Assembly: GCF_000003605.2 (NCBI RefSeq)
Contig: NW_003111480.1
Span: forward strand, 60,232 to 80,265
Source of the DNA: Saccoglossus kowalevskii
Lineage: Eukaryota > Hemichordata > Enteropneusta > Harrimaniidae
Length of the DNA: 20,034 bases
Direction of reading: 5' to 3'
The notes under the pieces are model-generated. The model saw only the letters and a program-made list of their open reading frames with translations. It had not been told where the DNA came from and did not search any database. The translations under genes were made by a program, and so were the position numbers. Each line of letters opens with the position of its first letter. Within the stretch, counting starts at the first letter, position 1. This document shows positions 766 to 20,034 of the stretch, in pieces.

Positions 766-785
766 CAAAAAAATATGGCTGCATT

Positions 786-1190: not shown

Positions 1191-1207
1191 TGATGACGTG
1201 GCCAGAA

Positions 1208-1395
1208 TTGTCGCGTGGTAAACTAGTGTCTTGGTTAGTCCACGCGACCACGTGAAGCCCCTTTCCGAATTTCATATATATAAAATACAGATATTAATGT
1301 CGGACTGTCATTTTGTTTGTGTCCAAATAGTTACACTAGTAAATAAACTCAATCTACTACGTGTCTTTAGCAACCGGTGTTGTCCACGCTATGGC
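1208..1395 (+). mobile_element. LTR-like module (TATA, start, polyA signal within 75 bases)
   Basis: A TATA box (TATATATAAAA, 1275-1285) is followed about 33 bases later by an initiator-like GTCATTTTG (1307-1315). AATAAA comes another 30 or so bases on (1342-1347). Such close packing of promoter and polyadenylation signal is the U3-R layout of LTR retrotransposons. A 9-base inverted pair GTCGCGTGG/CCACGCGAC (1210-1218, 1240-1248) lies in the U3-like part. No internal gag/pol follows and exact ends and target duplication were not found, so a solo or degenerate LTR is the most that can be said; the limits given are approximate. Confidence 0.35.
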
Positions 1396-1399
1396 AGGC

Positions 1400-2740: not shown

Positions 2741-2750
2741 TATAAAAGCG
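2741..2750 (+). promoter_or_regulatory. Isolated TATA box
   Basis: TATAAAAGCG is a consensus TATA box, with CCAAT-type boxes downstream (ATTGG at about 2759, CCAATCA at 2793). No initiator or coding start follows within 150 bases, so it may be fortuitous. Confidence 0.2.
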
Positions 2751-2967
2751 ACTCTTTGATTGGTTTGACTTGGTATGTGTTAGGATTGGGCAGCCAATCA
2801 GGTACAATCTTGTTACTAGCTTCACATTAGCACTAGAGCTGAATCAAATTCATTTTCTTTTGCGTCATTTACTCATTCATTCTGATTGGTTCCGTTTGGT
2901 AATAGGAGCAAACATTTCCTAAGGATTTTGATTATTTGCGTTCGCACACAGCACGTTAGCACGGACT

Positions 2968-3242
2968 CAATCTGATTAAAATAAAATCCTGGTTGGCTTA
3001 TTTTTTTTTTTCATATATAATTATTATTTATTTCAATTATTTTTTGACGTTACAATTATTTTGTTGTAAGAATTGGTTTGTTTATGAAAGCCACCAGGAA
3101 ATTTATTGTGAAAGCAAATATTAAAACGAATATAAATAATAAAAATTAATATTAATAATAATAATAATAAAAACTAATAATAAAAATATTAAAATTAAAT
3201 TAAAAAACTTAAACCAACCAGGATCTTATTTTAATCAGATTG
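2968..3242. mobile_element. AT-rich foldback/MITE-like element, about 275 bp
   Basis: Bases 2971-3000 (starting TCTGATTAAAATAA, then ATCCTGGTTGG) and the reverse complement of 3210-3239 match at 28 of 30. The match extends three more bases outward (CAA/TTG). The interior is almost pure A+T and includes TAA/ATA runs (about 3120-3205), so it could fold on itself. There is no coding capacity. Related material lies outside these arms (2919-2966 versus 3243-3340: CTAAGGAT, GCGTTCG, TTAGCACGG), so the true element may be larger and rearranged. No clean target duplication was found; the superfamily is not assigned. Confidence 0.7.
3143..3210. repeat. AAT/TAA-rich low-complexity tract
   Basis: ATAAT units in imperfect array (for example AATAATAATAATAATAA near 3153-3170) form the right half of the foldback element interior. 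A similar short TAA run is at 4201-4216. Confidence 0.6.
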
Positions 3243-3275
3243 GCACGGGTTAAGAGAAAAAACGTTAGCCCGTGC
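3243..3275. repeat. Short hairpin beside the foldback element
   Basis: GCACGGGTTAA (3243-3253) pairs with TTAGCCCGTGC (3265-3275), an 11-base stem with one G/T-type mismatch around a short loop. The GGGTTAA/TTAGCACG motif recurs at 2954, 3296 and 3334, suggesting subterminal repeats of a larger element. Confidence 0.5.
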
Positions 3276-3344
3276 TAAGAAAACGTGCACGAACGCGGGT
3301 TAAATCTGATCCGTTTTAAGACCCGGTCTAGATCCTTAGCACGA

Positions 3345-4080
3345 GTTAACGAGTGTGTGTGAATTGCTCAGTGCAATCTTCTGTATTTGTTCAGGTATTG
3401 TTTTATAACAGTATACCTAACATGTATAGCATCATGGTTACTGTTCCGTGTTCTCCCGTGCGTGAACGCATTGAAGTCTATCAGATATGCGCAAATATGA
3501 GATCAACTTAAATCTTAAACCAAGCTTGATTTACCCGCAATTGTCAGCTCTTGTAACTGAAAATGCTTTATCTATCACGTTTTTATTCTCATGAATGTAT
3601 CAACATGAATTGTATACCTTCTTATCTTCAAATTACGTGAGGGGAGAAAAATCTAACAGCCCACTTTGGCAAATCTCGATTTTCAGTGTCATTATAGTTC
3701 AATTACTCGCCTATTTGTACGCAATTGAGAATTGCCAAATGCATAGATTTTAAATTAAGCACCAAACTGTGAAATACCAAAGTTTGTCGGCACTTTTTCA
3801 AAGCCGTAAGTGACATGACGCCACCTTTACTCACAATTCACAACTCTCTGATTTGTAACTTGAAGCACTCAACGGGAGGATATCTGCTAAGCTAACGATA
3901 TTTAACGAACGCTTCCCGGGTTGAATGCATAATCGGATCCATGCGAACGAGAGAACGATTAAAACGATTATGCTCCTGTCAATCTGCATCAAATTGAAGC
4001 ACTCCGAGTCAATCGAGTGAGACAACAAAGAGGAAATAACAACAAGGAATGATCATATGGTATGATAGAATTCTGGGGTT
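3345..4080. other. Intergenic stretch, nothing firm
   Basis: A 65-codon minus-strand frame (3831-4028) overlaps a GTGAGT donor at its end but has no recognisable protein and no acceptor. Otherwise unstructured AT-rich DNA. Confidence 0.45.
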
Positions 4081-4082
4081 GT

Positions 4083-4096
4083 GCGCCCTCTAGTAT
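4083..4096 (-). promoter_or_regulatory. CTCF-like motif, minus orientation
   Basis: The minus strand reads ATACTAGAGGGCGC, matching 12 of 14 positions of the bilaterian CTCF core CCASYAGRKGGCRS, including every position of the CTAGAGGGCGC half. Confidence 0.35.
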
Positions 4097-4618
4097 GCGC
4101 AAATATTATGCGCAATACACTGAATCAACAGGTGGCTGAGTATAACTAAGCCCCGACGCTTACAGATTCGACTACTGCATTCATAACGGTGTTATACAGT
4201 ATAATAATAATAATAATTTTATGTTTTGTTTTTTTTCCAAATTAAAAAAATCTAGTAGCTTATGGCAGCTATAGTGGAACCCATTCCTAGTATGATTTTT
4301 TTTTATCTCGTTACATTAGAAAAATTTAGAACAATCGTCATAACAGTCATATAAATAATATTTAAACACGATACAGTTCTATAAAATTAATAGCTACGGA
4401 CAGATTAAAGTCGCCTTTAATATTTTCACTGAAATAAATGTATGCGTCATATATTCGCTATAAAGACAATAAATAACAAAAACCATAAATATGTTTTATT
4501 GAGGTTTAGACCAAATTGGAAATTAAATAGGGTCACCAGAAAATATTGCGATAAATGAGAGTGAATTATATATTGTGGAAAATGACAAATGTATCAATCT
4601 ATCTTTATCTTTACATTA

Positions 4619-4632
4619 GTTTCCATGGTAAC
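4619..4632. promoter_or_regulatory. Perfect-match RFX X-box
   Basis: GTTTCCATGGTAAC fits GTHNYYATRRNAAC at every defined position. It lies about 580 bases upstream of the TATA/initiator promoter at 5166-5200 and about 200 bases beyond the donor of the minus-strand exon 4833-4951. Roughly one such site is not surprising by chance in 20 kb. Confidence 0.45.
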
Positions 4633-4832
4633 AGTATATTAATAAATTGTTTTAGAGACATGAGATAAAAGGTTCTTTCATCATATATTCACTTATTCGC
4701 ATACAATTACTTTTCGTTTCCATAGTGATATGATGTTTGTTGTTGCATTATATTCAACCGGATTTTGTTTTCCATAATGCATTGTAATATGCTAAATAAC
4801 GTGTGCAGTAATTCGAATGCGTCACGTCTTAC

Positions 4833-4951
4833 CTTGCTGTGATTGGTTGCCTCGTTTTGATAACTACTGATAGCCGCAGTCCGAAGGGGCTTTGCTTTGC
4901 TGCTCGTGAATGACGTCACCAATGTTTCGATTTTTCGGGTATTGGTTGTCT
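4833..4951 (-). CDS. Candidate internal exon with strong splice sites, unknown product
   Basis: The minus strand has a strong acceptor (ATTTACATTTTTCAG) before 4951 and a strong donor (CAAG|GTAAGA) after 4833, framing 119 bases. Entering in phase 1 the whole exon is open: two bases finish a codon, then 39 codons (TTNTRKIETLVTSFTSSKAK…) to a phase 0 end. Phase 2 is open for 28 codons (DNQYPKNRNIGDVIHEQQSK…) before a TAG near the donor. The exon could therefore be coding or part of a non-coding transcript. It also contains a CRE (4911-4918). Its transcript would come from near or beyond the plus-strand promoter at 5197, so a divergent or overlapping arrangement is possible. No domain recognised. 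Confidence 0.4.
4911..4918. promoter_or_regulatory. Full CRE palindrome
   Basis: TGACGTCA, inside the minus-strand candidate exon and about 220 bases upstream of the CRE in the 5197 promoter. Confidence 0.55.
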
Positions 4952-5135
4952 CTGAAAAATGTAAATAAGTGATATATTGTAAGTATTTATTGGATGTGTT
5001 TGCAAGTAAAGATTTTATTTTCATTCTGTAAATTCGGGTAAATATGAACTGTTGACAGCGTGCACCATGCATGAACCTGAAACGCGCACTTGAAACCCGC
5101 AAACCGTCTATTCATTGTAAACGAACTATGTGACG

Positions 5136-5200
5136 TGACGTCAGTGTTACATGTGTAGCCGCATGTATATATATACTAATTGTACGAGTATCACTCAGTC
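5136..5200 (+). promoter_or_regulatory. CRE + TATA box + initiator core promoter
   Basis: A full CRE palindrome TGACGTCA lies at 5136-5143. A TATA box (TATATATATA) starts at 5166. An initiator CTCAGTC has its A at 5197, 31 bases from the TATA start. These distances match canonical animal core promoters, with the CRE about 57 bases upstream of the predicted start. It should drive the exon at 5251. CREB/ATF control, for example cAMP or stress inducibility, is inferred from the CRE. Confidence 0.6.
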
Positions 5201-5250
5201 AACCTGAGAAGTGTACGTTGGTTTGTTATGTAGCACGTGAACTGTAGGTA

Positions 5251-5359
5251 ATGGCTAACACACAGTGTGCTGCCAAAACTCAGGGACAGTATCTGGGTTC
5301 AAAATACGTCTTCAGAAGAGTACAGTGGCTGGTTAAAGAGGACAAGTACGTCAATGAAG
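5251..5359 (+). CDS. Candidate first coding exon, unrecognised protein, behind a TATA/initiator promoter
   Basis: ATG at 5251 opens 36 codons plus one base, ending at donor GAAG|GTATGC (phase 1). The product starts MANTQCAAKTQGQYLGSKYV and continues FRRVQWLVKEDKYVNE, a mixed, aromatic and charged sequence typical of coding DNA. I see no signal peptide or membrane segment and do not recognise the family. The start is supported by a correctly spaced TATA box and initiator giving a 5' UTR of about 54 bases. The next exon was not pinned down. Phase-compatible acceptors downstream include GGGTTTCAG at about 5812, CTTTCTTGTGCAG at 6831 and GTGTTATTTCAG at 7254. The 7254 acceptor opens 28 codons and the 6831 acceptor is near an AATAAA. 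Confidence 0.5.
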
Positions 5360-5364
5360 GTATG

Positions 5365-6595
5365 CGTGTTATATAACCAAACAAGGTCTGCATGATGTGA
5401 TGAAACTCTGGTGGCCACAGGGCCGCATCAAACACAGCAAAACGGTCAATTGTTCCCAAGAACCAATCAGTATTATAGCAAACGAGAATGACAAATCGAA
5501 TAACAAATACAGTTGCACACACGTTATCGACATGGATAAGAAAGGCGTTAGCTAAGCGCCCCGGCTAAGCAATATATGGAGCCTAAAGTGTGTTTGAGTT
5601 ATATTGTGACGTCATCAATAATTGTGATTGTGCCACGTTTATATATGAAAAAAAAAACATCAATGTGAAATGAAATGTTTCGCTGCTATTGGCCCCGAAA
5701 TCGGAATAATTATACCTCATCCTCGAAACGCATTTAATTAATCAACAAATTGTCACGCAAATACGAGGAGAACAATAAATTGTAAATTGTAAAGGGAATT
5801 CTGGGTTTCAGACATCCATATTGCTCCTTTTTATCGCAACAGCTCGTGACATCTGACATTTCCACTGCATAGTAATTATTGCCACTGAAGTCATGACACT
5901 GACTGATGGAGCACGTTTGTAATTCTTATACTTTCTCACTATGCACTGACGGGTAACACTGATAACTGAGTTGTATCTCAAGAATTCCTAACTCGACACA
6001 TACAAGTCCCATATGTGATTTTATTAGAATGTTTAGTGGCGTGGATTATTTCCACATAAAATCGCCGTCGCGCAAAGCATCACGGTCGTCACACAGAGCA
6101 CCACACATTTGTCACATACCCAGGGTGTTCAAAATTAATGTAAACATTTATATTAGGGCAGGATATAGAGGAAGAGACCAAAACTTTGTTATAAAATTTG
6201 TTATTTTGGTAAAATTAGTCATTTCACGGTGAGGGGAAACAACCATGTACATTTTATTTGGTGGAAATCAGTTCATGTGACTACAGGATATAAATAACTG
6301 TATAGATTAGGAAATTCGCAATTTTGCAAACACAGAAATGCAATGCTTCATAATTCCAACAACCAAGTAATTACAATCACATCAAACTTTGCCAGGAAAT
6401 GTGGTCAACATGGGTTTATTGTTGGGGTTTCAATTACTATGATACTTGTATGGCGTTAAATCATACTCTACATGATGACTTATTTTAGTTACGTCATGAA
6501 GTTTCTAAAGTGTTCACTTACTTACATCACTGACCAGATTACATTGGACCAGATTGTGCGAATGTAGCCGATAGATCACGCAGTGTGTTTTACAG
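5365..6595 (+). other. Presumed intron of the 5251 gene
   Basis: Apart from the CRE at 5607 and an acceptor-like GGGTTTCAG at about 5812, followed by 12 open codons and TGA in phase 1, I see no supported exon. Frames at 5280-5522 (minus) and 6029-6232 (plus) look like chance. Confidence 0.35.
5607..5614. promoter_or_regulatory. Full CRE palindrome
   Basis: TGACGTCA, about 250 bases inside the presumed first intron of the gene starting at 5251. Confidence 0.5.
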
Positions 6596-6596
6596 A

Positions 6597-6597
<1 letters not shown>

Positions 6598-6684
<87 letters not shown>

Positions 6685-6720
6685 AGAAATAAAGAAATAA
6701 AGAAATAAAGAAATAAATAA
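6598..6720. repeat. AAAT tetranucleotide microsatellite with AAAGAAAT tail
   Basis: The array is uninterrupted AAAT units from 6598 to about 6685. After that AAAG and AAAT alternate to 6720, for roughly 31 units in all. The compound tail suggests point substitution followed by expansion. Low-complexity; no gene. Confidence 0.97.
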
Positions 6721-6831
6721 AGTCTAATCAGAGATGGCGGAGCCTTGTGACATTTAAGACTACAAGACGGTGAGCGTTTTCGCTTGTGTTACGTCAAACA
6801 TTTATATTGATACTGTCTCTTTCTTGTGCAG

Positions 6832-6857
6832 TCGTCCGTCATTTACAATTAAATAAA
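6832..6857 (+). other. Strong splice acceptor with adjacent AATAAA: possible 3'-terminal exon start
   Basis: The plus strand reads ACTGTCTCTTTCTTGTGCAG up to 6831, an excellent acceptor with a long pyrimidine tract. All three frames stop within 18 codons, and AATAAA lies at 6852-6857. This would suit the last exon of the gene starting at 5251 (phase 1 gives 17 codons to TGA). No protein similarity supports it. Confidence 0.25.
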
Positions 6858-6933
6858 TCTATAAAAAAAAATATTTTTCTTTGACGGGCAGACTCCAGAA
6901 CGAAATAATATCGACGCCGCTCCTGCCACCCAA

Positions 6934-6941
6934 TGACGTCA
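6934..6941. promoter_or_regulatory. Full CRE palindrome
   Basis: TGACGTCA, 14 bases before the CTCF-like motif at 6955-6968. Confidence 0.5.
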
Positions 6942-6954
6942 TAGAAGCGTTATA

Positions 6955-6968
6955 TGGCTAGAGGGCGC
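6955..6968 (+). promoter_or_regulatory. CTCF-like motif, plus orientation
   Basis: TGGCTAGAGGGCGC shares the 11-base CTAGAGGGCGC core with the motif at 4083-4096 in the opposite orientation; the first three bases do not fit the CTCF consensus. Confidence 0.35.
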
Positions 6969-6969
6969 G

Positions 6970-8040
6970 ATATGTAAAAATAGTTTATCATTTGCTAAAT
7001 TGAAAAGTGAAACATATATATTTATTTATGCCCGGTAGCCTCTATACAAGAACAACAAAATAAAATAAATATGGTTTATCCGTATCAATAGCTTTAATGA
7101 TAATTCAGTTTACTGAACCATATTACACCGAACCACGGCTTTAATAACTGCATATTGTTTCCTATTATATAGTCAAGTTATATAAAGATGTTTCGTGCAC
7201 AGGTTCTGAATGTTTGTGTTATATATTAGTTATTTGTCTGTGTGTTATTTCAGTCAGCATCCAGTGTAGCGAAAAACTCTCACAAACAGCTTTGATATTT
7301 AAAAGTCACGTTTCGTTTCCACTGAAATTGGAAGCATAGCTTGAAGTGTTATCAGCGTGTCTGTGACGAGACTCGGAAAGTAAAGTTGGCGGTACTATCA
7401 ATGGATTCTGAGTTAACGCTATTGCAGTGAGATCAGTGAAGCCGTGCACGATTCTCTCACGGTTTGTATAGCATTTGTTTGTGTGTGTTTTTCGAGAGAC
7501 AACACAAATGTGACATTTCTAAACATAATATCTATGATGTTACATTTATTTCAGTTTTCTTTCTACATCAGTCACTGAAGGTAATTACAAATACAGTCTT
7601 TAAATCTGTTTTCTTCATAACTTCAGTTAACGGCATATATTAAACTAATAACCGTAAAGCATTCCGATTTGATACAATTATCCGTACTAGCCGGCCGTCT
7701 TCCTAATGTCACGTGAACATTGCGTCATATGGTGACCGAATAAACACGACAGACACGATAAAGTAACACTCGTTTACTTTGACTGATTGTTACTTCTGCT
7801 TTCTGTGACTCCCTGTGACGCGCTCCGAAACAACACTTAATCTACCTCCGAATACACATACTATTTGCCATGGTGACTGTTACCAGGATACCGCATCTAT
7901 TAGGCTGAATACTGTATTAATACACACTGACCAATCAATGCTCACTGATCAATGTTGAAAATTTCTTTAATATTTACGCTCTCATTTACCAGATAAATTT
8001 GGCCTCGGTGCCGATTCAATTTGACAGCTCAATGGTAGCG
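6970..8040. other. Non-coding stretch with two good splice acceptors
   Basis: GTGTTATTTCAG ends at 7254 and opens 28 codons in phase 1 (VSIQCSEKLSQTALIFKSHV… then stop). ATTTATTTCAG ends at 7554, and 26 bases later CTGAAG|GTAATT forms a possible microexon (7555-7580). Neither has protein-level support. Confidence 0.3.
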
Positions 8041-8045
8041 GATAG

Positions 8046-8177
8046 ATGCCAACTTTAAGTGTTTCGCAAATGTCGTCTACTTTTAAGGACTACACTTCAA
8101 TCAAGCAAATCAACGTTGAAAAGCTGGTACAGGAAATGACATTTGACAGACTGGCGGAAACAAGCACGCTAAATTGA
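8046..8177 (+). CDS. Small ORF (43 codons), protein-like, unrecognised
   Basis: ATG at 8046, immediately preceded by an in-frame TAG, runs to TGA at 8175-8177. The product includes STFKDYTSIKQINVEKLV and then QEMTFDRLAETSTLN, hydrophilic, probably helical and without low-complexity bias. A second in-frame ATG at 8070 is possible. Frames of this length are expected by chance in this composition, so the support is only the amino-acid mix. It could be a short peptide gene, a first exon cut at AAGCTG|GTACAG, or noise. Confidence 0.25.
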   Translation: MPTLSVSQMSSTFKDYTSIKQINVEKLVQEMTFDRLAETSTLN

Positions 8178-8266
8178 GCCTTTTTCTACCGTGATTGTTG
8201 ATTCATTTGACGAGTGTTCCGAACATTTCTACAAAAAAAGGGAAACAATTTACGGCGTCGCCGGTC

Positions 8267-8276
8267 TATATAAAAA
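8267..8276 (+). promoter_or_regulatory. Isolated TATA box in GC-richer context
   Basis: GCCGGTCTATATAAAAACAC contains a consensus TATA box. A 90-codon plus-strand frame (8191-8463) starts upstream of it, so the box would not serve that frame. No recognisable product follows. Confidence 0.2.
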
Positions 8277-8856
8277 CACTATGAATATTTTTATGTTCAA
8301 CTCAATTCGTTCAACTCGATATACATGTACAAATCCTCGTCGTCAGATAAAAAATAGAGACAAATCCTTCACTTTCATATTCACATTTCGATGGTGTTCT
8401 TCAATGATTATAAAAAATAATATACCACATAACCGTATGTGGATGCTTCCTATTTACATCTGACATATGTTCCCAGCTTAATCGCTGAACCAGTGAGGGT
8501 AGTACACGTCGTGTTCTAGAGAGACGTCATCTGCTCTCTCCGGCATCAACCAGGTTGTTTTTGTCACAGATATGGGCTTGGACGTTACGTAAGTTATTAA
8601 AAAAGACGTCGGAGGTCATCAATGTCACTTGTCTGGTTTAAGATTCATGTTTATATGAGCAGGATAGATGTCCCCGCTGAGAATGATGTGCCTACTCTTT
8701 TCGAAAGACATGGCATCACGATCTCTCGCTGGTAAAACCATGAATCGTTAGTAAAGATATGAATACATGTAACATATACTAATATAAATAAATGAAGATT
8801 CACTAACAAGTCAAAGGCCACGTGTCTGATTATATTTACATTCAAAAAATACTCAC

Positions 8857-8970
8857 ACGCAATGCATCTTGGGAGAATGTATGGTCAGCGTAAGACGTTG
8901 CTCTACTATAAATATCTCGGAGAATTTTGGAAATAAAAACACGAAGAAATAAACCAGTGAGTCGAGACAT
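8857..8970 (-). CDS. Weak candidate first exon, unrecognised
   Basis: On the minus strand ATG at 8970 opens 38 codons ending exactly at a GTGAGT donor (8856-8851). The reading starts MSRLTGLFLRVFISKILRDI and continues YSRATSYADHTFSQDALR. The beginning is basic and hydrophobic, like a mitochondrial presequence or short helix. The base before GT is T rather than G, which weakens the donor. A chance frame is quite possible. Confidence 0.2.
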
Positions 8971-8989
8971 TGTGCATGTCAGTGCTCCA

Positions 8990-10440
8990 ATGTCGTTTTT
9001 TTGTATCTGTCATGTGATCTAATAGTAACATTCACAAAGGAAAAACGACAACCAGTACAGAGACAATAATGAATCATAGACCCAGGGTGTCCGAGCAAAA
9101 GGCGTCGGTGAGGTTTTTCAAAAATAGCGAGTACATTCTGCTTCACCTGTGTCGTAATTAAAAAAGATTGCTGTTCTACATCAAGCATCGAGATCAACTT
9201 TGTAACAGTGTTGTCGTATTTAGGTTCTATCGCTGTATAAATAAGTGTAAGGCGTGATATGTTCGTAGCCATGTACAAAAACTCACAGCAACATGTGCGC
9301 ATGCGTGACTGGAGAACAGTCACACTCCTTGCACGGTTTATACGCTGTGTTATAATTGAAAGTGTGTTTTTTTTTATTTAAAGAAATTACCCGTGACAGG
9401 AGAAATGGCAGCGGCGCCTCTTGAGTTGACTACAGTACACAGGATGTTTGGTTAAGTAAGTCACTTTTGGTGCCGACTAAGTGTTCCAATTATACGGCAA
9501 AGACAGAATTACGTAAATGTGAGCGAGTTCTTTTAATGGGAACATTCCACGAGTTCCGAGTTTGCAGAAAACATAAAGAATGTTGGCAGAATCCAATCAA
9601 AAAAGATCAACGTAGTGACGTTGTATTAACGTTTGCGTAATATGCGTGGAGGTGTGCGTGCACGTACTCGTGGTTTGACGGTAATTGGACAAGCATACGT
9701 GCCATGGATCGATGAACCGACTGACCGACTCTGTAGTTTATTTCTCGGTGACATTTAAAGTGAAATGTCAAGTTACTATAAAAGTAATGTACTGACAATA
9801 CAAGTGTGATTTTATACACACACACGTGTAATTTCGATTTCAGATCTCCGCTAATAACTATTCGAACATATCTAGATAGATAGAGAAAGTACGACAAGAA
9901 CCCTGCTGAACGATGAAAATATACTCAATACGTAAATATATAATGGTGTTTATTCTAGACTATAAGAATTAGCATCTAACTGCTTCATTTATGAAATGAA
10001 TCAGACTATGAGAAGCTTTTTTTAACACATCTGAATATTTGTTCGATGCAACAATGACATTCTATAATACGCATGCATATTTCCATTTTTCATCTAACGA
10101 ATTTGTGTCCTGCAAAAACAACATGTTCAGTTTATGATAAATTATAGTGCGATTTGGTCTTTAGTATTGAACAGCAATATTAAACAATATGTTTTTATCC
10201 ATATTGCATTTATAAAATAGACAATAATGCATATTTTCCGTAATGCGTGTTTTTTCTGAAAAATTAAATGACACTGTCTCTATGATACGTCGTTATTCCG
10301 TGTCTGTGCATACATAAATAATATAATATTGAAATATACTTAGATTTCATCAATATCGTCCCAATACGATCAATTAACTCAACAGAAACAATATTAGCTA
10401 TTAACGAATTGTGTCTACAGCCAATTAAATATTAACTTGA
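8990..10440. other. Non-coding stretch, nothing firm
   Basis: It contains a well-contexted ATG at 9405 (AGAAATGG) with 16 codons to TAA, next to GTAAGT at 9455. It also has a short GATA run near 9872 and an NRF1-like GTGCGCATGCGTG at 9295-9307. The minus frames at 8979-9323 and 9607-9897 show no domain. Confidence 0.4.
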
Positions 10441-10482
10441 GTTGAAAAAAGCCAAACATAGGATAAAGACCGCGGCACTATG

Positions 10483-10556
10483 GGAATCGAATTCCGGCTT
10501 TCATGGATCAAACGCCGCCGATGTTTTTTTCAATTTATACTGCTAACCTAATCTAA
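10483..10556 (-). other. Degenerate tRNA-like sequence (possible SINE head)
   Basis: On the minus strand GGAATTCGATTCC (10495-10483) resembles a Pol III B box (GGTTCGANTCC). TTAGATTAGGTTAGCAG (10556-10540) resembles an A box followed by the D loop. The gap between them is about 44 bases, longer than in a normal tRNA, and no intact cloverleaf can be drawn. This pattern suits an old tRNA-derived SINE rather than a functional tRNA. Confidence 0.27.
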
Positions 10557-10697
10557 GGGGGAGAGATTTTGACATCGTTTGTGAATTCAAATTCAGCGTA
10601 TTCGTCATCACAAATATTCAGCTTTTAGGTGTACTTGCCACAGCTATTTAGTGTTTCGATCCAAGAAAGGAGGTCGCACATTTTGATTGTTAAAGTA

Positions 10698-10705
10698 TGA
10701 CGTCA
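10698..10705. promoter_or_regulatory. Full CRE palindrome
   Basis: TGACGTCA followed by a half site (CGTGACGAC). No start codon or TATA box is obvious nearby. Confidence 0.4.
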
Positions 10706-10870
10706 TCGTGACGACACAGCTCTTGAATCTCATTGAATTGCTTGGCCTTATTGAAGAATTGTTCAATAGACCCTGACATCAACGCAATAACACTTCTGAG
10801 TAAAATTTTGTACTAACGTTCATCGTATCACCGTGGCAAATATTAACTCAGTTATAACGTTGGTATGGTA

Positions 10871-11390
10871 TAGTAAATGTCCTGATATTCACAGTAAATG
10901 GTTGATATTCACGGTAAACGACCTGATATTCACAGTAAATGGTTAATATTCACGGTAAACGACGTGATATTCACAGTAAATGATTAATATTCACGGTAAA
11001 CGACCTGATATTCGCAGTAAATGGTTAATATTCACCGTAAACGACCTGATATTCACAGTAAATGGTTGATATTCACGGTAAACGACCTGATATTTACAGT
11101 AAATGATTGATATTCACGGTAAACGACCTGATATTCACCGTAAATGGTTAATATTCACAATAAACGACCTGGTATTCACGGTAAACATCTTTATATTCAC
11201 GGTAAACGACCTAATATTTACGGTAAACTTCCCGATATTCACTGTAAACGAGGTGATAACGTCATGATATATTCACGGTAAACATCCTGATATTCATGGT
11301 GAACGTCCTCGCGTTCACGGCAAACGTTACGATATTCGCGGTTAACGTAGTGATGTTTCCAGTAAATGCCATGCTATTCACAGTTATACC
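10871..11390. repeat. Minisatellite of 20-21 bp monomers, about 24 copies, with a 41-bp dimeric phase
   Basis: Two monomer types alternate in the left part: A (GATATTCACAGTAAATGGTT, 20 bases) and B (GATATTCACGGTAAACGACC plus T, 21 bases). They give a 41-base higher-order unit repeated about seven times to about 11165. From there the array continues as B-like monomers only, increasingly diverged (ATCTT, TTCCC and AGGT variants), and fades out by 11390. The ORF at 11296-11532 on the plus strand begins inside this array and is rejected as coding. Confidence 0.92.
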
Positions 11391-12080
11391 ACTCTTTGCC
11401 TCATGCCCATTATTATGGTGTTTATTTCTGGTAGGGGGACAGTTTTCGGAAAGTACTTTTTGTCGGAATTTACTAGGAAAGTACTCTTTTTTGTCAGCAT
11501 TTACTGGAAAAATATTTTTTCTTTGCCTTTAATAATGTTCATAATACGAATTTGAAAATGGTACATTTTAAATTAGCAACGCCCTGGACAGATCGACGAG
11601 CTGTGTGAATGGCTGAGCTGGTGGTTTGTGTTTGAAAGCAAATTAGTTTACCATGATACGTACATGAGTCAGGTGTAATTTCTACATTGTCCCATTGTAC
11701 TTCTATACAAAAAACTTTACGTAACAATGTTCGCCGTGACAACGCACAAACCGGAATGGGCCGCCAAAAAAAACAACGTAATACATCGTTGAAATGCGGC
11801 AACAAATGACGCTAACGGTATTTAGCCGTCTGTTCGGGGTCTTGATTCTAGTAAACGTCTTCGGCCCTGTGGGCTTCATACTTTAGTAGACGTCGTGCTA
11901 TTGACAGTATGACACCATGACTTTAAAAGCCACAAAAAACAGTAGTTTTTGAATAATAGTAATTTGTTAAAAGTGTTTTTATTTTTGTTAAATGGTCATT
12001 AATTTTATGTTGTTTTTTTATATTATCTATAACGAACAACTGACTCGCGCGTTTTTAACTGTCACGTAAAAACTATATAG
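11391..12080. other. Non-coding stretch, nothing recognised
   Basis: The plus frame ending at 11532 is a read-out of the minisatellite into a hydrophobic chance tail. The 88-codon minus frame at 11539-11805 has no domain or splice support. Confidence 0.45.
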
Positions 12081-12087
12081 TATGTAT
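12081..12087. repeat. Target-site duplication, left copy
   Basis: TATGTAT directly abuts the left end of the hAT-type MITE. The identical heptamer abuts the right end at 12489-12495. The eighth base differs depending on how the boundary is drawn (G on the left, A on the right). Confidence 0.75.
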
Positions 12088-12488
12088 CAGAGGTACATTA
12101 CTTGGGGTTTGCAACTCGCATAGTACTGTATGGTGACATCATGTCAAGATCCCATTCAAGTCTCTTCTCGTAGATAGCGAGACTGAGGCTACGAACTTCT
12201 GACATGATATATATCAATGTTCAAGGTTTGTAATGAAAAAATAAAACTTTTCTTGCCACTATCGTAGTGAAAAATGTAATACATCGAAAATGTAAAGGAA
12301 ATATAGTTCTCGTAATCCGTCATATCGTGGGCAGCTATTTTGATCCACCTGGACATCCCAGTATCCGAGTTACCTCGGGCATGCGCATTCGCATTTTTCT
12401 GAGTTGGAACGCTTATGCGAGAGCGAGATTGTGACGGGATCTTGGTATCATGTCACCGTAGTTGTAAACCCCAAGTAATGTACCTCTG
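12088..12488. mobile_element. hAT-type MITE, 401 bp, with terminal inverted repeats
   Basis: The left end begins CAGAGGTACATTACTTGGGG. The reverse complement of the right end begins with the same 20 bases and stays matched to 28 of 29. Beyond that the arms remain recognisably related (GGTGACAT…AAGATCCC in both). The element is flanked on both sides by TATGTAT, a 7-base direct repeat that fits a decayed 8-base hAT target duplication. CAGAGG…CCTCTG ends are typical of hAT elements. No transposase frame is present, so it is non-autonomous. The near-perfect ends suggest fairly recent insertion. Confidence 0.85.
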
Positions 12489-12495
12489 TATGTAT
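12489..12495. repeat. Target-site duplication, right copy
   Basis: TATGTAT directly follows the right end of the hAT-type MITE and matches the left copy at 12081-12087. Confidence 0.75.
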
Positions 12496-12809
12496 ACAAT
12501 TCGTTCATATACCAGTCCTCCGTGTGATAACCCCTGCCACTTCACCGCACGTTCATATTGTGCTCTGGGTTTGACTTATACATAACGAATGTGTCAAATC
12601 CAGCTGCAGTATTTATGAGCTCTGTCTCAGATTGAAACATGATTTCAATTTTCAACTGACCTGTAAAGAGGCAATCATGAGAAAAAATGAAATGTTGCTC
12701 GTTGTTTGTCTTAAAATAAAAATTGAAACGTTTTCACGTACGCACAGCTAATTCGAAGTGAATGCGACTGAGAACTCACTATTAACATGCTTGAAAATAC
12801 ACAGTTTTC

Positions 12810-12815
12810 TTTATT
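12810..12815 (-). terminator. AATAAA polyadenylation signal
   Basis: The minus strand reads AATAAA here, overlapping the TAA stop of the candidate terminal exon. It is followed within about 10-20 bases by GTGTATTTTC, a plausible GU-rich downstream element. It is meaningful only if the exon call is right. Confidence 0.4.
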
Positions 12816-12926
12816 GCATATTTCGAAGCGTAAGACCGAAGTATCCGTCTTTGTAAGAGAAACCGGACCGATTCATCAGCGAATCTGGAGATGTTGTCTT
12901 CGATGATGATGACGGTTTCGCAGTAA
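12811..12926 (-). CDS. Candidate terminal exon with overlapping polyadenylation signal
   Basis: On the minus strand an acceptor (GTATTTTTCTAG) is followed by 116 bases. They read as two bases finishing a codon, 37 sense codons and TAA. The reading (…AKPSSSSKTTSPDSL, then NRSGFSYKDGYFGLTLRNMQ) is Ser/Thr-rich and then ends in a Gly/Tyr/Phe segment. The acceptor phase (1) matches the donor phase of the RIIa exon at 18864, so the two could belong to one transcript, directly or with exons between. The stop codon overlaps an AATAAA signal (GCAATAAAG), and a GT/T-rich stretch follows at about 12805-12795, as expected for a 3' end. Codon use is richer in G/C third bases than the surroundings. I do not recognise the C-terminal sequence as a known domain. 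Linkage to the RIIa exon is inference. Confidence 0.42.
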
Positions 12927-12929
12927 CTA

Positions 12930-14340
12930 GAAAAATACACGCGTACATCACAAACATTCTTTTACCGTGTCTTTGAGTAGTCTGTCTATTGAATTTAAAC
13001 AAATTATGTAATGGCATATTGACGCGCTGTTATCAGTTATTATATCTCGTCTAATCCGATAAGTAGGCTGTTGTCAGTTTCTGTTCAGCGTCAAATGGGA
13101 TACGGAATCATTAATTGGGTTTGATGTGGCCGATGTTGGGATAATCTCTCGCGATAAACCATATTACGTATTTGGGTTAGGAATAATTAGCCACTTTGGA
13201 CATGTAAATCGATAGTGATCCTGATTAAACTAAGTATTATTCTCGTTTGTTATAACATATTTAAATGTAGGATGGGCTTGACGTACGTAGTGTTGGGTGA
13301 CGTAAAACACGGTGAATTAGCTATTTAACGCTCCAGCGAAGTCCGCGACTCGGTGTATGAATTATCAGACCCCGACTGTGATTATAGACATTTCTGAATT
13401 TTGAAATGTTGTTGAACTAGCTTAAACGCAAGTGTAACGCCTGCTAGGGAAAGGGGCATTTTACGGTACTATGTGACGTAACCCATGACACGTAGCCTAA
13501 TTAAAACCTCTCGCCATTTTCGTGATTGAGTATATACTGTAGAAAACGTTGAAATAGCTGCACACAGTTTTAACGTATTTGACTCTTGGTATAAATTAAC
13601 AGAATCTTAATTTAGCTAAAGTGTTGATTATCTCCCTGTGAGAATATACTTTCTTTTAAATTAGCTACATCTTGAATTAGTGAAATTACAGATTAGCTAA
13701 ATTAGCTAAAATAACATGCTAGCTAAAAAGACATGTTTTATTGTTGGTTTCACATTCTTTTTTGAATGATTTAAATTGGTATAGCTTTTGGTGTGTTTTT
13801 TATCGATGCATATACTTACAGATAACACACGAGTAAACGGATTAACAGAGTGACCTGCCAGAGTACTTTTGCAACGTTCTGTGCGAGTATAAACGGGCAC
13901 GCAGATCAAAACGGAAACGCAATACCGCGGATCTCCAAAAACGTGAGCATAATGTGTCACCAATTGTATCACTGCTGTCTCAAAATGTCAAATAGATCTT
14001 CTAGAGTTGCCGTGGTTATATACTTATTCGTGACATGTTATATGAGAATCATATACCAATAGGAGACAAATTGACTACAAATTAAGCAACACGTAATACA
14101 TACCGACAATTTGATTGGCCGAAACCTCGCCCATTTCACTACAGTAGTAGTGGTACAAATTAATCGAATCGTTGCCATTTGAAGGTTACAGAACGTAATA
14201 AACTACTCCCGTATTGCGCCCGTGGTTCAGGTGCCGTAACAAACACGCAGTCATAAGATAACAAAAGTAAGTAAACTTGTATAGGAATTTACTTCAGTTT
14301 ATATGTTTATCTAAAAAGAGTATTTTGATGAGAGCCACAC
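12930..14340 (-). other. Presumed intron of the RIIa gene or intergenic DNA
   Basis: TTAGCTAAA-type motifs recur at 13612-13735 without forming a tandem array. A minus-strand acceptor at about 13383 (ATAATCACAG) opens 16 codons to a stop in phase 0, which does not fit the RIIa exon phase. Overlapping frames at 13706-13972 and 13850-14062 on opposite strands look spurious. Confidence 0.35.
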
Positions 14341-14570
14341 ACATTTTACGAGGCGGGGTAGGCTGAAAAGCGCCGAGCGTCCGACCGTCCACAAACATTT
14401 AATTCAGCCGATTTATTTTGTTTTGGGATTGGAATTGCATTTAAAGCGCGAGGGTCGGGACGATAACAACACACGCTAAAAACCGCAAAGGCTCATGAGA
14501 AGGCGCTTGTTTGTAAACAATGACACGCTATGGCCGTCTGACGCATGCGCAGGTGACGACTCCCCGGCTT
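14341..14570. promoter_or_regulatory. CpG-richer block with NRF1-like and forkhead-like motifs
   Basis: The stretch has a visibly higher CpG density than its flanks. It holds ACGCATGCGCAG (14541-14552, one mismatch from NRF1) and TTGTTTGTAAACAATG (14507-14522), a palindromic forkhead site. An ATG at 14494 gives 19 codons (MRRRLFVNNDTLWPSDACA) to a GCAG|GTGACG donor, too weak to call a gene. A promoter or enhancer is possible; forkhead plus the nearby RFX cluster would suit a ciliary programme. Confidence 0.3.
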
Positions 14571-16515
14571 TAATCATTCACAATAACTGTATTACCAAGA
14601 TCAAAACATATCTTTGTTGACAACTTGGTCGCGCCTAACAATATCTCGTAAAAAATGTAAAATTTTAAATAATTTTGGAGAGTGAATAAGTTCCACCTTA
14701 TAAATGTTCAAGTGAAAAATAAAAATCACGATTCATTGTCATAGCTGATAGCTGTGTCTACCAGTGCCAATCTATACATAGAGCCACTGAATTCGCTGAA
14801 ACGGCAAGTATTTATTTCAGCGTTTTTTTTAGTTAAATCCAACTTTAGTGGCCAGTTTAAAATGCATTACAGGTACCCGCATTTTTCACCGGAATTTAAA
14901 ACAGCCAATCACAAAGAATAATTTACCAATATTTCAAAAAAAAATCTATAAGTGTGTTGATTGCGGGATCCTCACTATCTGATGTGAAATATAGAGCACC
15001 TGACCTGAGTACAGATCACAGTTATCATTATTTTAATGTTATCATATATAATAGTGAATTACGAAACCAAATATGTATTCATTCAACTTGATAAGACGGA
15101 CATGTATAATAACGCTACGATAAAGACTTTCCGGTTCGACATTGTGAAATTCTTTCATTTTTTAGAGAAAAAACATGAAAAAACTGATTTTGACAAGATA
15201 ATTCATAAATTTATATTAGGAATGATTCGATATGTATTCTCTATACATCCATAAATTATTTTCATAATTATCGATTACACAAGAATATAAAGAAGATAAA
15301 TTGCTATATTCTCTATATATTTGTTTTGCATTATGGCTGACAGAAGCTGAATGATATTACAAACTATGTAGTGTGTTCAACAACTTTGATAAATATGATT
15401 CTACTTGATGAAAATACTGTACTGCATAAAAACAAAAGAATTTCACAATGTCGAAAATGCAAATTTGCAGTGTTCACTATGGATTATTTGATTAACGATC
15501 TGTGTACTAGTAATTATGGCCGATAGACGAGACGTTAATAAAATAATTCAAAGGGGGACTGAGCAGTAAAGTATTACTATTATCACATTATCACACCTGC
15601 TACTAGCGTTAATATTATCATAATACATGTATTTTATGTACATTTTTGACAAATATTTTTTAACTGGGATTTGGAAATCAAGCCCTGGCCTGTTTTACTG
15701 CTAGATTGGAGATATAATAAACGAATCACATGTTGTACACAAGGGACTGGTGTAATTATTAACTTAATTATTATCATAGAATACACTGATAACAGCCCAC
15801 ATTCAGAAGTAGAACTTATAACCCAGAGTTAGACGCATTTGACACGACACAAACAAATATCTGAAATTGGGTTGTGCTATTTGTCCCCGATGTTGCCCTA
15901 GGACTTCACTTTGGGCGACAAATGTCACAGGTGTTATGGGCCAGTCTGAAGTCAAATTGGTAAAGAAATTTAGTGATACACTTCGGTATAGTACGACGTT
16001 CTCATTTGTGAACTCTATTCGATGTCTACGTGAAATGTTCGTTCTGAACTGACACGAAATTCCTGGCACCAAACATTCCCACACTCATACTAGTTAGTCC
16101 AGGGCTTTCAGTTATTATACTACGCTTGTTAATTTATAAAATGTAACTTTTTTATCGCCAGTTTATTTATGTGATAATTTACAAATATGTATGTGAAGAG
16201 TCATGTATTGTCGCATGATCATTTCCGACCTTATTGAGGTGTGTGTAGAGTGTGTTTTCGTAAACTTCGCCTCTTACTCATCGTTTAGTCGCGTAATTAA
16301 AGCCGCGTGTAGCACTGAACAATTGCAGGGGCGAGCGATATTGCCGAATACGAGAACCATACCAAGCATAAATTGTGTTTATATGTACCTAATACACTTA
16401 CAGTTTCAGGTAGTTCATGTGTGGCGTTTCTATATGCATATAATTGTGTTGTACTATTATCATTCTAAATTATCCATGCTTTACACAAATGTCAAATTTT
16501 AAACTGATTAAAAAA
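14571..16515. other. Non-coding stretch, nothing firm
   Basis: An ATG at 15516 in good context gives 16 codons (MADRRDVNKIIQRGTE) to GCA|GTAAAG, which is unconvincing. Frames at 15036-15254, 15803-16084 (with 15867-16052 opposite) and 16203-16502 lack domains. A 9-base inverted pair AAGCCCTGG (about 15679 and 16106) was seen but is too short to define an element. Confidence 0.4.
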
Positions 16516-16519
16516 CCGT

Positions 16520-16594
16520 ACACAAGGTGGTAAAAATATTGAATATTTTTGGGTGTTTCGAATGAATATTTGACCTAACCACGTGACCTTGTGT
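16520..16594. repeat. Nested inverted repeats
   Basis: ACACAAGGT (16520-16528) pairs with ACCTTGTGT (16586-16594). Inside lies the near-perfect palindrome AAAAATATTGAATATTTTT (16532-16550). It sits about 85 bases before the X-box cluster. It could be a remnant of a small inverted-repeat element. Confidence 0.4.
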
Positions 16595-16677
16595 CAACCA
16601 TACCCATATTTAGCCTACCGTCAATGCCATTATTATTGTCATTCGCAGTTCATTTTTATAATGCACGACGGCTACTT

Positions 16678-16913
16678 GTTGCCAAGGTAACAAATAATAA
16701 TATTTTATGCGGTCGCTCAAACTGAATTAAATTAGTGTTTCATTGTTGAAAAATGACGTTGTCGTGGTAACATCCCACTTACGTCATTTGTTGATCATTA
16801 CATGAAAACAAAACAACCTGTGCAGTGGTTGCTATGTCAACTCTCATCGCATACCGTTTTCTAAGACGTTTACACTTTCATCGAAATAATTGATGGTTAG
16901 TTGCCGTGGCAAC
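16678..16913. promoter_or_regulatory. Homotypic cluster of four RFX X-box motifs
   Basis: Four 14-mers resemble the palindromic X-box GTHNYYATRRNAAC with one mismatch each. They are GTTGCCAAGGTAAC (16678-16691), GTTGTCGTGGTAAC (16758-16771), GTTGCTATGTCAAC (16828-16841) and GTTGCCGTGGCAAC (16900-16913). Spacing is regular (80, 70 and 72 bases) although the intervening DNA is not a tandem repeat. RFX factors bind X-boxes and drive ciliary genes in animals. The cluster lies about 2 kb inside the transcribed side of the RIIa exon, so an intronic ciliary enhancer or an internal promoter is the natural reading. The motifs are directly visible; the function is inferred. Confidence 0.6.
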
Positions 16914-17525
16914 AATGCCACAATATAACAGGTTCGGATTTAGTCCGTATGAGATATTCTCAGGTGTATTAAGTGAGGTAGGGATTATTTTATTCACAAT
17001 GTGAAATGTAATAACAAAAAGTAATGATCTCGTATAAATGTGAAATGGTGTGCAAGTTCAGACTAAACTGTAAATGGTAATAAATGACATTGAAACTAGT
17101 TTACTGCCACTGCAGTACCTGGATATTGAATCCAAGGCATGGACAAACTGCAGTATGTGTTCTTCCGCGCTAAATTAAGCTTTCGTAACTGACGTGAAAT
17201 AATGAAGAATGCCTTTGTCTGTGGTAGGTCGTTCGCAAAAATACGGTGACATTGTGTCAATTTTCGAATGCAGCACACAGCACACAGCACACCATAACAT
17301 TACTCACGCTACTTGTGCGAGAGTTTAACGATTTCAGTCAGCATTCGACTGCATGTACATTTTGTATTTTCCTTTCAAAGTGAGAACTCACGATATTGTC
17401 ATATTGACGTGTGGGGAATATCAAGAAGCGGTACGGCAAATGTGACTTGACTAAAACCGCGGTGTACATGCTTTATATACATCATGATATTTTAAGTCAC
17501 CAAACACATCCCGAAGCCGATCAAA
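16914..17525. other. Presumed intronic DNA right of the X-box cluster
   Basis: A CACACAGCACACAGCACACC short tandem run is at 17272-17291. A GTGAGT donor-like site on the minus strand at about 17301 follows only an 11-codon frame that stops. Nothing else supported. Confidence 0.4.
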
Positions 17526-17611
17526 TTAAGCTTTATTTGAATGGTATTGGTGGTATTCCGTGTGCGCTGCAGACTGATACAACATCGGTGAACTCAAAGA
17601 ATGTATCATAG
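17526..17611 (-). CDS. Weak alternative terminal exon for the RIIa gene
   Basis: A good minus-strand acceptor (GCTTTTTTTACCTACTAG) ends just before 17611. In phase 1 the next 86 bases read 28 codons to TAA (…MIHSLSSPMLYQSAAHTEY…), and an AATAAA overlaps the end (17532-17537). In phase 2 a different frame is also open for 25 codons. Phase 1 agrees with the RIIa exon donor, but short open frames next to acceptors are expected by chance in DNA of this composition. It is listed as a competitor to the exon at 12811. Confidence 0.15.
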
Positions 17612-18255
17612 CTAGTAGGTAAAAAAAGCTATTATAAGTTGATTTCGAAACAAGTGACCCGACTTTTAATGCGTAAGCATGGTGATACGTTTATACGCGA
17701 TAACATAATATTGTGATGGATTATATTCCATCGAATATGCGTCACGGTACCGGGAAAGATACGCTTGCAATCGACACCGGAATATAATTATTTTCATTGC
17801 AGTTTTCTTATTATAATCTACAGAGTGTGGGTTTCATTCTATATCATGATGAAATCAGATTGCCGCAATTGAGTCGAGGCAACTAATCACGTTAATACGG
17901 TCCTAATGTGTAACGCAAACGCCTCGGTACAACGCAATGATTGTAAAAGCAGTGCGTAGCAGATGGTGCAGCGGGATTGAATCACGAATGTCAATACATT
18001 TTCGCTTTCGATAAACTAAACCTGATGAGGCACGGGGTGCCGTGAATCACCTTCAGATAATTTACATCATATGACACGAGTATATATTTATGCTCCTCAT
18101 GTATATTTCATAGCATAGATTTTATATTAATGATGTCCCAATACGATGTCCATTGTAAAAGTAGCATATTAAAAACTGGTCAATCAACACTCATCGCTGC
18201 TTTCAATTAAAAATTTCATCACCCAAATAATGACCAGTGCTGCGGTATATATTAC
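17612..18255. other. Presumed intronic DNA, nothing recognised
   Basis: No tandem repeat, inverted repeat or domain-bearing frame was seen between the weak terminal-exon candidate and the weak internal-exon candidate. Confidence 0.4.
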
Positions 18256-18389
18256 CTTCCACAAACGATGTTTTTCATCTATACTGGGCAATCTCTCGCG
18301 TTTAAAATATGTTTTCCGTACTACACCGCAAAGATGCATTTTAATATTCAATATACAATCCCCAGAATCAGTAGTACATGCAATACCTA
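18256..18389 (-). CDS. Weak candidate internal exon beside the 21-bp minisatellite
   Basis: The minus strand shows a possible acceptor (CTCTGTATGTCATGTAG) at the edge of the minisatellite, then an open frame that can start in phase 1, and a donor TGGAAG|GTAATA. The last part reads VVRKTYFKRERLPSIDEKH followed by RLWK, a charged segment with a protein-like composition. The phase would join the RIIa exon donor. The acceptor has a poor pyrimidine tract and sits at a repeat, and the plus strand is also open here, so this is only a possibility. Confidence 0.17.
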
Positions 18390-18390
18390 C

Positions 18391-18621
18391 ATGACATACA
18401 GAGATATAGACATTACATACAGAGATATTGACATGACATTCAGAGATATGGACATGACATACAGAGATATTGACATGACATACAGAGATATTGACATGAC
18501 ATTCAGAGATATAGACATTACATACAGAGATATAGACATGACATACAGAGATATGGACATGACATACAGAGATATGGACATGACATACAGAGATATGGAC
18601 ATGACATACAAAGATATGGTA
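18391..18621. repeat. 21-bp minisatellite, 11 copies
   Basis: Eleven contiguous copies of ATGACATACAGAGATATNGA plus C. Variation is concentrated at three sites (G/T at base 4, A/T at base 8, A/T/G at base 17). Copies 8-10 are identical. Because 21 is a multiple of three and the unit lacks stops in several frames, it creates long open frames on both strands (about 122 and 166 codons). These are artefacts of the repeat. It lies directly beyond the RIIa exon, inside the presumed first intron. Confidence 0.95.
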
Positions 18622-18863
18622 TGGAATACGATGTGAACTTGTATATAAACCAAATAATAGATAGATATTTTTGAAAAAAATAAACTGAACACGAGTAAAA
18701 CATCATATATGCAGTATTGGGCAATGACTACATACATATTACCAGTAAATACTTTCCCGAGACATGTGACAATATCAAAGCAATGCATTGATTTTTGTAA
18801 ATGTTTACGGAATTCATGATACGTTTGTGTGTGCATCAGTTCACGTGAATTATTGGGACTTAC

Positions 18864-19014
18864 CTCTGATGTTGATAAGTGAATCAAAATAGTCGGCTGC
18901 GAACGTGTATATATTTTCTGGCTGGGATCTCAATATCTCCTTCGTCAGACCTTCTAGGAGTGACTCAAATCCGTCCGGAATTTTATATTTTACATGTGCA
19001 CGTTGAGTTGCCAT
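18864..19014 (-). CDS. First coding exon of an SPA17-like RIIa-domain protein (sperm/cilium PKA-anchoring type)
   Basis: Reading the minus strand from the ATG at 19014 gives 50 codons plus one base, then the donor AGAG|GTAAGT at 18863 (phase 1). Residues 12-29 read IPDGFESLLEGLTKEILR and residues 31-46 read QPENIYTFAADYFDSL. This is the RIIa dimerisation/docking pattern: IP.GF..LLEGLT..ILR, then QP.NI..FAA.YF.SL. The best family match from memory is SPA17; CABYR and other RIIa proteins share the fold but are less similar. RIIa domains dimerise as a four-helix bundle and bind the amphipathic helix of AKAPs, in sperm fibrous sheath or axonemal radial spokes. The N-terminal position of the domain and the short leader (MATQRAHVKYK) fit the family. 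The C-terminal part (an IQ motif in SPA17) was not found in the window, so the exact paralogue is unresolved and no symbol is given. The domain call is firm. Confidence 0.93.
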
Positions 19015-19265
19015 AGTAGTCACAGTCGGAAACGGAGAGTGAAACTAACGTGCGATGTAACAGGAGTTACAACCGTTGTCGTTACGGAGACTCCTTAGGT
19101 TTATACAAATTCACAAAATAACTACCCAGCTTGTTGTCGACTCGGAACTCTTGACACGCCGCTACGACTGAGCTCACTGCGGTACGTATCTATTAATTTT
19201 AAGTGGCGCCGTATCGCCAGGTAGACCCCCTTATTATCGACTCTGCACTTCTTTCGACGCCGCCT
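19015..19265. promoter_or_regulatory. 5' UTR/promoter region of the RIIa gene, possibly bidirectional
   Basis: This stretch directly upstream of the minus-strand ATG has more CpG than its surroundings, especially 19140-19265. On the minus strand a weak TATA-like GTATAAAC lies at 19099-19106. A degenerate X-box-like 14-mer (GTCGTTACGGAGAC, two mismatches to GTHNYYATRRNAAC) lies at 19078-19091, about 64 bases before the ATG. A plus-strand ATG at 19270 suggests a head-to-head arrangement, but that start is weak. The promoter position follows from the exon; the individual motifs are marginal. Confidence 0.5.
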
Positions 19266-19269
19266 TTCA

Positions 19270-19452
19270 ATGATGAACGATGAAAAAGACGCGATCCGAG
19301 CGACGATGCGCGATCAGCTGGAAGTACCGTGTATTGGTATGATGGGTTCACAGAGAGACTGCCTTACTAAATTGCATATCATTTCTAACTACGACGACTA
19401 TAGAAGATTAAATTTTGGTAATGATGTATGGAGTGTATTTCTGGTAAAATAA
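19270..19452 (+). CDS. Weak candidate exon or short ORF divergent from the RIIa gene
   Basis: ATG ATG at 19270 starts a 60-codon frame, closed by TAA at 19450-19452. The first 22 codons (MMNDEKDAIRATMRDQLEV…) are CpG-rich and charged and are followed by a reasonable donor TATTG|GTATGA at 19336/19337. A spliced first exon is therefore as likely as the full ORF. It starts 255 bases from the minus-strand ATG, compatible with a bidirectional promoter. I recognise no domain. Confidence 0.22.
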   Translation: MMNDEKDAIRATMRDQLEVPCIGMMGSQRDCLTKLHIISNYDDYRRLNFGNDVWSVFLVK

Positions 19453-19970
19453 TTAAAATATTCCCTGACTCTCTAAGTAGCGATATCAAGCGCTGACATT
19501 GCTTTCTGTTGATGAGTAATTAAATCTGCAACATGCTATCACCATCTTAATATTATTAATATGTCGTTCAAATTATTCCATTGAGAATCAAATCAATATG
19601 AGGACAAGTTATACTGAAATGCGCAGAGATCCCCCTTTATTAAATGTCATTATATACGCACGCGCATTAGATGCACGCCGCATGCATGTCGATGAAATGA
19701 AATAAAAACTGCACAGATCATATCTTAATCGCGTGGTCGCCCTGTCCCCGTGACCTGAACAAAGACTTATAAAAGTCAAATTGGTATAGATCACATGGCT
19801 CCTCATTTTTTATAGCACGGTCAATATTTTTCTATAATTGCTTTGCAAGGCCATGGGGATTAGTTTTATTAGCGGGAACTCGTCGATAAACGTTATTTAC
19901 TGTGATTACTTTATTGTGATAAAGCTCCTCGGATCGCACACGCTAGTTTGACAAATACGAGTATGCGGGC
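19453..19970. other. Non-coding stretch, nothing recognised
   Basis: Mixed-composition DNA with no splice-bounded frame. The minus frame at 19609-19806 has no domain. CpG density rises again toward 19940. Confidence 0.4.
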
Positions 19971-19984
19971 GTTGTCATGGTAAT
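19971..19984 (+). promoter_or_regulatory. X-box-like motif before a possible plus-strand start
   Basis: GTTGTCATGGTAAT matches the X-box consensus except for the last base. It lies 23 bases before the ATG at 20008 in a locally CpG-rich stretch. That position would suit the promoter of a second ciliary gene divergent from the RIIa gene. Confidence 0.35.
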
Positions 19985-20007
19985 ATTACGACGTCGCTTG
20001 CGCTGAC

Positions 20008-20034
20008 ATGAGGGGGAGCTATCAGCAGAACGAG
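20008..20034 (+). CDS. Possible start of a gene running off the window
   Basis: ATG at 20008 opens nine codons (MRGSYQQNE) to the window end, with an in-frame TAA 27 bases upstream. It follows an X-box-like motif and CpG-rich DNA (ACGACGTCGC). Nine codons cannot establish a gene; only the context makes it worth recording. Confidence 0.2.

Follow-up and report, generated by a model that had tools for sequence, protein, structure and literature searches.

Four X-box-like palindromes within 236 bp near a SPA17-like exon of Saccoglossus kowalevskii: a candidate RFX-bound regulatory element

RFX is the standard regulator of cilium genes. In the hemichordate Saccoglossus kowalevskii, a 20,034-bp stretch of contig NW_003111480.1 (assembly GCF_000003605.2, positions 60,232 to 80,265; hereafter the window) carries four X-box-like sites within 236 bp in the neighborhood of a SPA17-like exon, which raises the question of whether such an array is more than a chance feature of the sequence and, if so, which factor could bind it and which gene it might serve. 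The four sites are palindromic 14-mers that each differ from GTHNYYATRRNAAC by one mismatch on both strands, and they begin at 16678, 16758, 16828 and 16900, that is, at start-to-start distances of 80, 70 and 72 bp, as the first-pass annotation of this DNA had described them. Using a hand-typed RFX matrix (maximum possible score 22.3), X-box 1 (16678..16691, GTTGCCAAGGTAAC) scored 17.5 and matches GTNRCC-N2-RGYAAC exactly, while X-box 2 (16758..16771, GTTGTCGTGGTAAC) and X-box 3 (16828..16841, GTTGCTATGTCAAC) scored 15.4 and 14.3, the latter the weakest of the four, and each show one mismatch to GTNRCC-N0-3-RGYAAC. X-box 4 (16900..16913, GTTGCCGTGGCAAC) matches this consensus exactly and, with a score of 20.2, is the top site in the window. 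Across the 20 kb, the array sites rank first, third, fifth and sixth.

The DNA between the sites had been described as something other than a tandem repeat, and this is borne out: no TRF row lies between the four sites and no repeat family of at least 20 nt was reported at the array. Further, when the four units of 70-80 bp were locally aligned two at a time, they showed little similarity outside the X-box itself. An origin of the array by tandem repetition or unit duplication was rejected on these grounds. The spacing of the sites is even (P ~0.004-0.006 given four sites, in a post hoc test chosen after the data had been seen). A shared helical phase was also considered and rejected, as the spacings divided into 10.5-bp turns leave fractions of 0.62, 0.67 and 0.86.

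Judged at moderate or strict cut-offs, the four-site cluster is not a random feature of the sequence. At one mismatch, GTHNYYATRRNAAC has 18 strand matches in the window against a shuffle mean of 5.56, a count that none of 100 shuffles reached (largest 16). This mean, which counts both strands of the 20,034 bp, corresponds to ~0.07 per 236 bp, in keeping with the earlier estimate of well under 0.1. When the whole window was dinucleotide-shuffled 500 times and scanned with this RFX matrix, clusters of at least four sites within 236 bp were never found at thresholds of 8, 10 or 12, but a threshold of 6 let them appear in 11 of the shuffles and a threshold of 4 in 261. The significance of the cluster therefore hinges on a moderately strict cut-off, and the comparison with shuffled sequence that the first-pass annotation had proposed sets the array apart at cut-offs of at least 8 and fails to do so at 4. 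In local shuffles of 1.5 kb, 4 of 2000 had at least four sites at a threshold of 8 anywhere in the 1.5 kb. We also scanned the real window with 1000 matrices in which the columns of the palindromic half-site had been reordered, excluding any that left more than two columns unmoved. Nine of these permuted matrices yielded a cluster of at least four at a score of 8 and none did at 10, 12 or 14, and the total site count of the RFX matrix was equaled by 21 of 1000 at a score of 8 and by none above it.

The inverted repeat GTNRCC-N0-3-RGYAAC is a published RFX site (PMC10530576), and its only two exact matches in the window are X-boxes 1 and 4, with 0.11 expected from 200 shuffles. Allowing up to one mismatch, the consensus is found 8 times in the window, while the 200 shuffles average 4.05 and reach 11 at most, so that the relaxed consensus count is by itself unremarkable. 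Among patterns with a two-base spacer, GTTGYYNNRRYAAC has three exact matches in the window, every one of them in the array (mean 0.05 in 100 shuffles), and GYTRYYNNRRHRAC has four, three of them in the array (mean 0.73 in 100 shuffles). The loosest published pattern, RYYNYYNNRRNRAC (RYYNYY-N-RRNRAC, searched with the 2-base spacer only), occurs 13 times in the window (mean 7.84, largest 15) and at three array sites, and clusters of three also arise in 100 shuffles; GYTRYY-type patterns at one mismatch likewise give clusters of four in shuffles. By sequence, RFX is the likeliest factor for these sites, given the two exact consensus matches and the lack of any cluster from permuted matrices at scores of at least 10. 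Inverted-repeat 14-mers could in principle suit other dimeric factors, but use of the array by a factor other than RFX seems very improbable given that the half-sites GTNRCC and RGYAAC are arranged as in the published RFX site and that the neighboring exon is of the sperm/cilium class.

A different challenge comes from the rest of the window, where X-box-like sites are again more frequent than in shuffled sequence. Ten sites score at least 12, against 0.68 in shuffles, and six of them, which the first-pass annotation of the array does not mention, lie outside it (at 4619, 7864, 11730, 19007, 19078 and 19971; same RFX matrix). With tandem repeats masked, other palindromic 8-mers are over-represented too: TGACGTCA with 10 strand counts, equal to 5 sites, against 1.06, CGTGCACG with 6 against 0.34 and TTAGCTAA with 8 against 0.65. 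These excesses would be expected if the genome, or a dispersed element within it, were full of X-box-like palindromes and the array were a dense spot of sites with no regulatory effect. We regard this as unlikely. The X-box count and cluster are not matched by any of the 1000 permuted palindromic matrices at scores of 10 and above, and the flanks of the sites share little sequence. Moreover, when the raised site density of the window is itself taken as background, any four sites would fall within 222 bp with a probability of 0.001 if there are 10 sites, 0.005 if there are 14 and 0.013 if there are 18.

The gene next to the array was identified from a minus-strand exon (19014-18864) whose translation is MATQRAHVKYKIPDGFESLLEGLTKEILRSQPENIYTFAADYFDSLINIR and whose 3' end is a phase-1 GTAAGT donor. 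This first coding exon of a SPA17-like gene matches the RIIa domain in Pfam (E 1.9e-9), and in the PDB Sp17 chains are the best three of 23 sequences, the top one at 1.5e-12. The SPA17/RIIa-like gene named in the first-pass annotation is thus upheld by both searches and by the donor. An X-box-like site at 19078..19091 (score 12.0) precedes the SPA17-like ATG by 64 bp and is a candidate promoter X-box. Sp17 carries an IQ motif in its C-terminal tail. Within the window, regular expressions, alignment of a hand-typed SPA17 tail and PDB searches gave no convincing downstream exon, IQ exon or tail exon; the best tail alignment scored 37, and tail exons may be too short to be found or may lie beyond the window. 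No relative of exon 1 was confirmed among 15 pattern matches in viral_contigs and 171 in genome_contigs.

The array lies ~2.1 kb downstream of the sole recognized start codon and ~1.95 kb beyond the donor of exon 1. As no further exon was found, it may be intronic, downstream of the gene, or another promoter. Of the earlier proposal of an intronic RFX enhancer or alternative promoter beside a ciliary-class gene, two elements hold, namely RFX as the likeliest factor by sequence and the Sp17/RIIa neighbor, whereas the intronic position does not follow for want of an exon 2. Six-frame Pfam searches at E up to 1, covering 61-10052 and 10043-20034, returned only RIIa and a sub-threshold GatZ_KbaZ-like match (E 0.17). 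PDB searches at E up to 1, run on the plus frames of 5050-20034 and the minus frames of 3884-18866 in addition to the search with exon 1, found no relative beyond those of exon 1, although short or poorly conserved exons could escape them. No known RNA or tRNA gene was detected in the window at the thresholds used.

These searches bear on the possibility that the array functions as a core or proximal promoter. The transcript could be that of an unrecognized neighbor, whether a gene (perhaps ciliary) or a non-coding RNA, and would then most likely run leftward on the minus strand from ~16630; or the SPA17-like gene could use the array as an alternative promoter. A minus-strand TATAAAA (16654..16660), a possible leftward core-promoter element, is placed 17 bp left of X-box 1. 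Because TATAAAA is present 21 times in the window, counting both strands, the chance of one that points outward no more than 60 bp from an end of the array is ~6%. At mouse Heatr2, the RFX3 peak 200 bp upstream of the start contains two predicted X-boxes (PMC4168999). Yet the Pfam and PDB searches reveal no further relative in the frames searched, and the 21-codon open stretch that follows the plus-strand ATG at 16915 was rejected as a first coding exon, having no PDB match at E up to 10. A promoter at the array is possible but on the unlikely side in our estimation.

Overall, the array would most likely be an enhancer or promoter bound by RFX, of an ordinary type but unusually rich in sites. 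More specifically, we tentatively suggest, as a reading with somewhat less than an even chance of being correct, that it is a homotypic cis-regulatory element to which RFX binds and which contributes to expression of the SPA17-like gene in ciliated cells or in cells that form sperm. The binding by RFX, the activity, the target gene and the cell type are all proposed here from sequence, and the target is assumed from proximity. In such an element, RFX dimers would occupy up to four of the inverted-repeat sites, and the array, as an intronic or downstream enhancer, could be brought to the candidate promoter X-box near 19078 by contacts between RFX proteins; alternatively, redundant sites may raise RFX occupancy. 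The improbable cluster, the adjacent Sp17/RIIa exon with its site at 19078 and the CRE-like words by X-box 2 count in favor of this RFX element, and against it count the unexplained X-box-like sites elsewhere, the ordinariness of the cluster at low cut-offs and the absence of [AG]TAAACA. These non-X-box motif words come from a short, hand-picked list: CRE-like TGACGT (16754) and TTACGTCA (16779) lie on either side of X-box 2, no CCAAT is present in 16500-17050, no [AG]TAAACA forkhead site starts in that interval, and a looser forkhead pattern has 2 matches there against a window average of 4.04.

The MHC class II S/X/Y module combines RFX, CREB and NF-Y. The array resembles this module in having an X-box and CRE-like words adjacent to each other at X-box 2, but differs in having several X-boxes and no CCAAT. 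It also resembles the RFX X-box promoters of ciliary and sperm genes in its GTTGCC-like inverted repeats near an axonemal-type gene, two of the four being exact to consensus. Published promoter X-boxes, however, are mostly near the transcript start (PMC4498915), whereas here four sites in 236 bp lie ~2.1 kb downstream of the only recognized start codon. Of the nearly 3,000 RFX2 peaks in mouse testis, 977 (about one third) were at promoters and the others were in introns, exons and intergenic DNA (PMC4498915). In Xenopus, Rfx2 was described on promoters and enhancers equally, with dimerization proposed to loop them together (PMC5245798). The distal Rfx2/Foxj1 enhancers of Xenopus multiciliated cells are comparable to the array in carrying RFX motifs away from a known promoter, but they also carry forkhead motifs (PMC5245798). 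Palindromic X-boxes are over-represented among the genes that dRFX regulates in Drosophila (PMC2375033). As a caution, degenerate X-boxes are as frequent there in negative-control genes as in dRFX targets, the separating feature being interspecies conservation of the X-box (70% in targets vs 23% in controls; PMC2375033).

Fine-tuning of expression has been suggested as a role for multiple X-boxes, although their significance is described as unclear (PMC4168999). If the array is used, it would offer a compact natural test of additive versus joint action of several X-boxes; otherwise it would be one unexceptional instance of the conserved control that RFX exerts over cilium and sperm genes. A more elaborate version, in which the sites, ~74 bp apart (about seven turns of the helix, or half the length of nucleosomal DNA, but without a shared phase), form a dedicated RFX array whose dimers cooperate by displacing or bridging a nucleosome, and which would act as a strong sperm/cilium enhancer or scaffold with no forkhead sites, strikes us as improbable.

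Several other features of the window were observed. Between 4619 and 5614 is a second regulatory-looking stretch, with X-box-like sites at 4619 (score 18.4) and 4716 (11.8) and three full CRE palindromes TGACGTCA at 4911, 5136 and 5607; no gene was recognized nearby. An X-box-like pair 15 bp apart is found at 7864-7892 (7864, score 15.7; 7879, score 8.1). The X-box-like match at 19007-19020 overlaps the SPA17-like start codon (ACTACTATGGCAAC) and is probably a coding coincidence. A further 8-mer, ACCAATCA, is over-represented in the window with tandem repeats masked. The whole-window CpG o/e is 1.16, which indicates no CpG depletion. Such a lack of depletion would suggest little germline DNA methylation in the source animal. 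A CpG-island-like promoter at the array was considered and rejected, its CpG o/e of 1.30 being matched or exceeded by 32% of equal-size windows. A minisatellite of 21-bp units (18389-18619, 11 copies) lies ~245 bp beyond the splice donor of the SPA17-like exon, and at 10873-11354 a minisatellite with a 41-bp unit (8.6 copies) merges into a diverged array of 97-bp period made of ATATTCACGGTAAAC-like words. Finally, a 29-bp inverted repeat (12088-12116 and 12460-12488), whose arms are 97% complementary and 343 bp apart, could mark a small mobile element.
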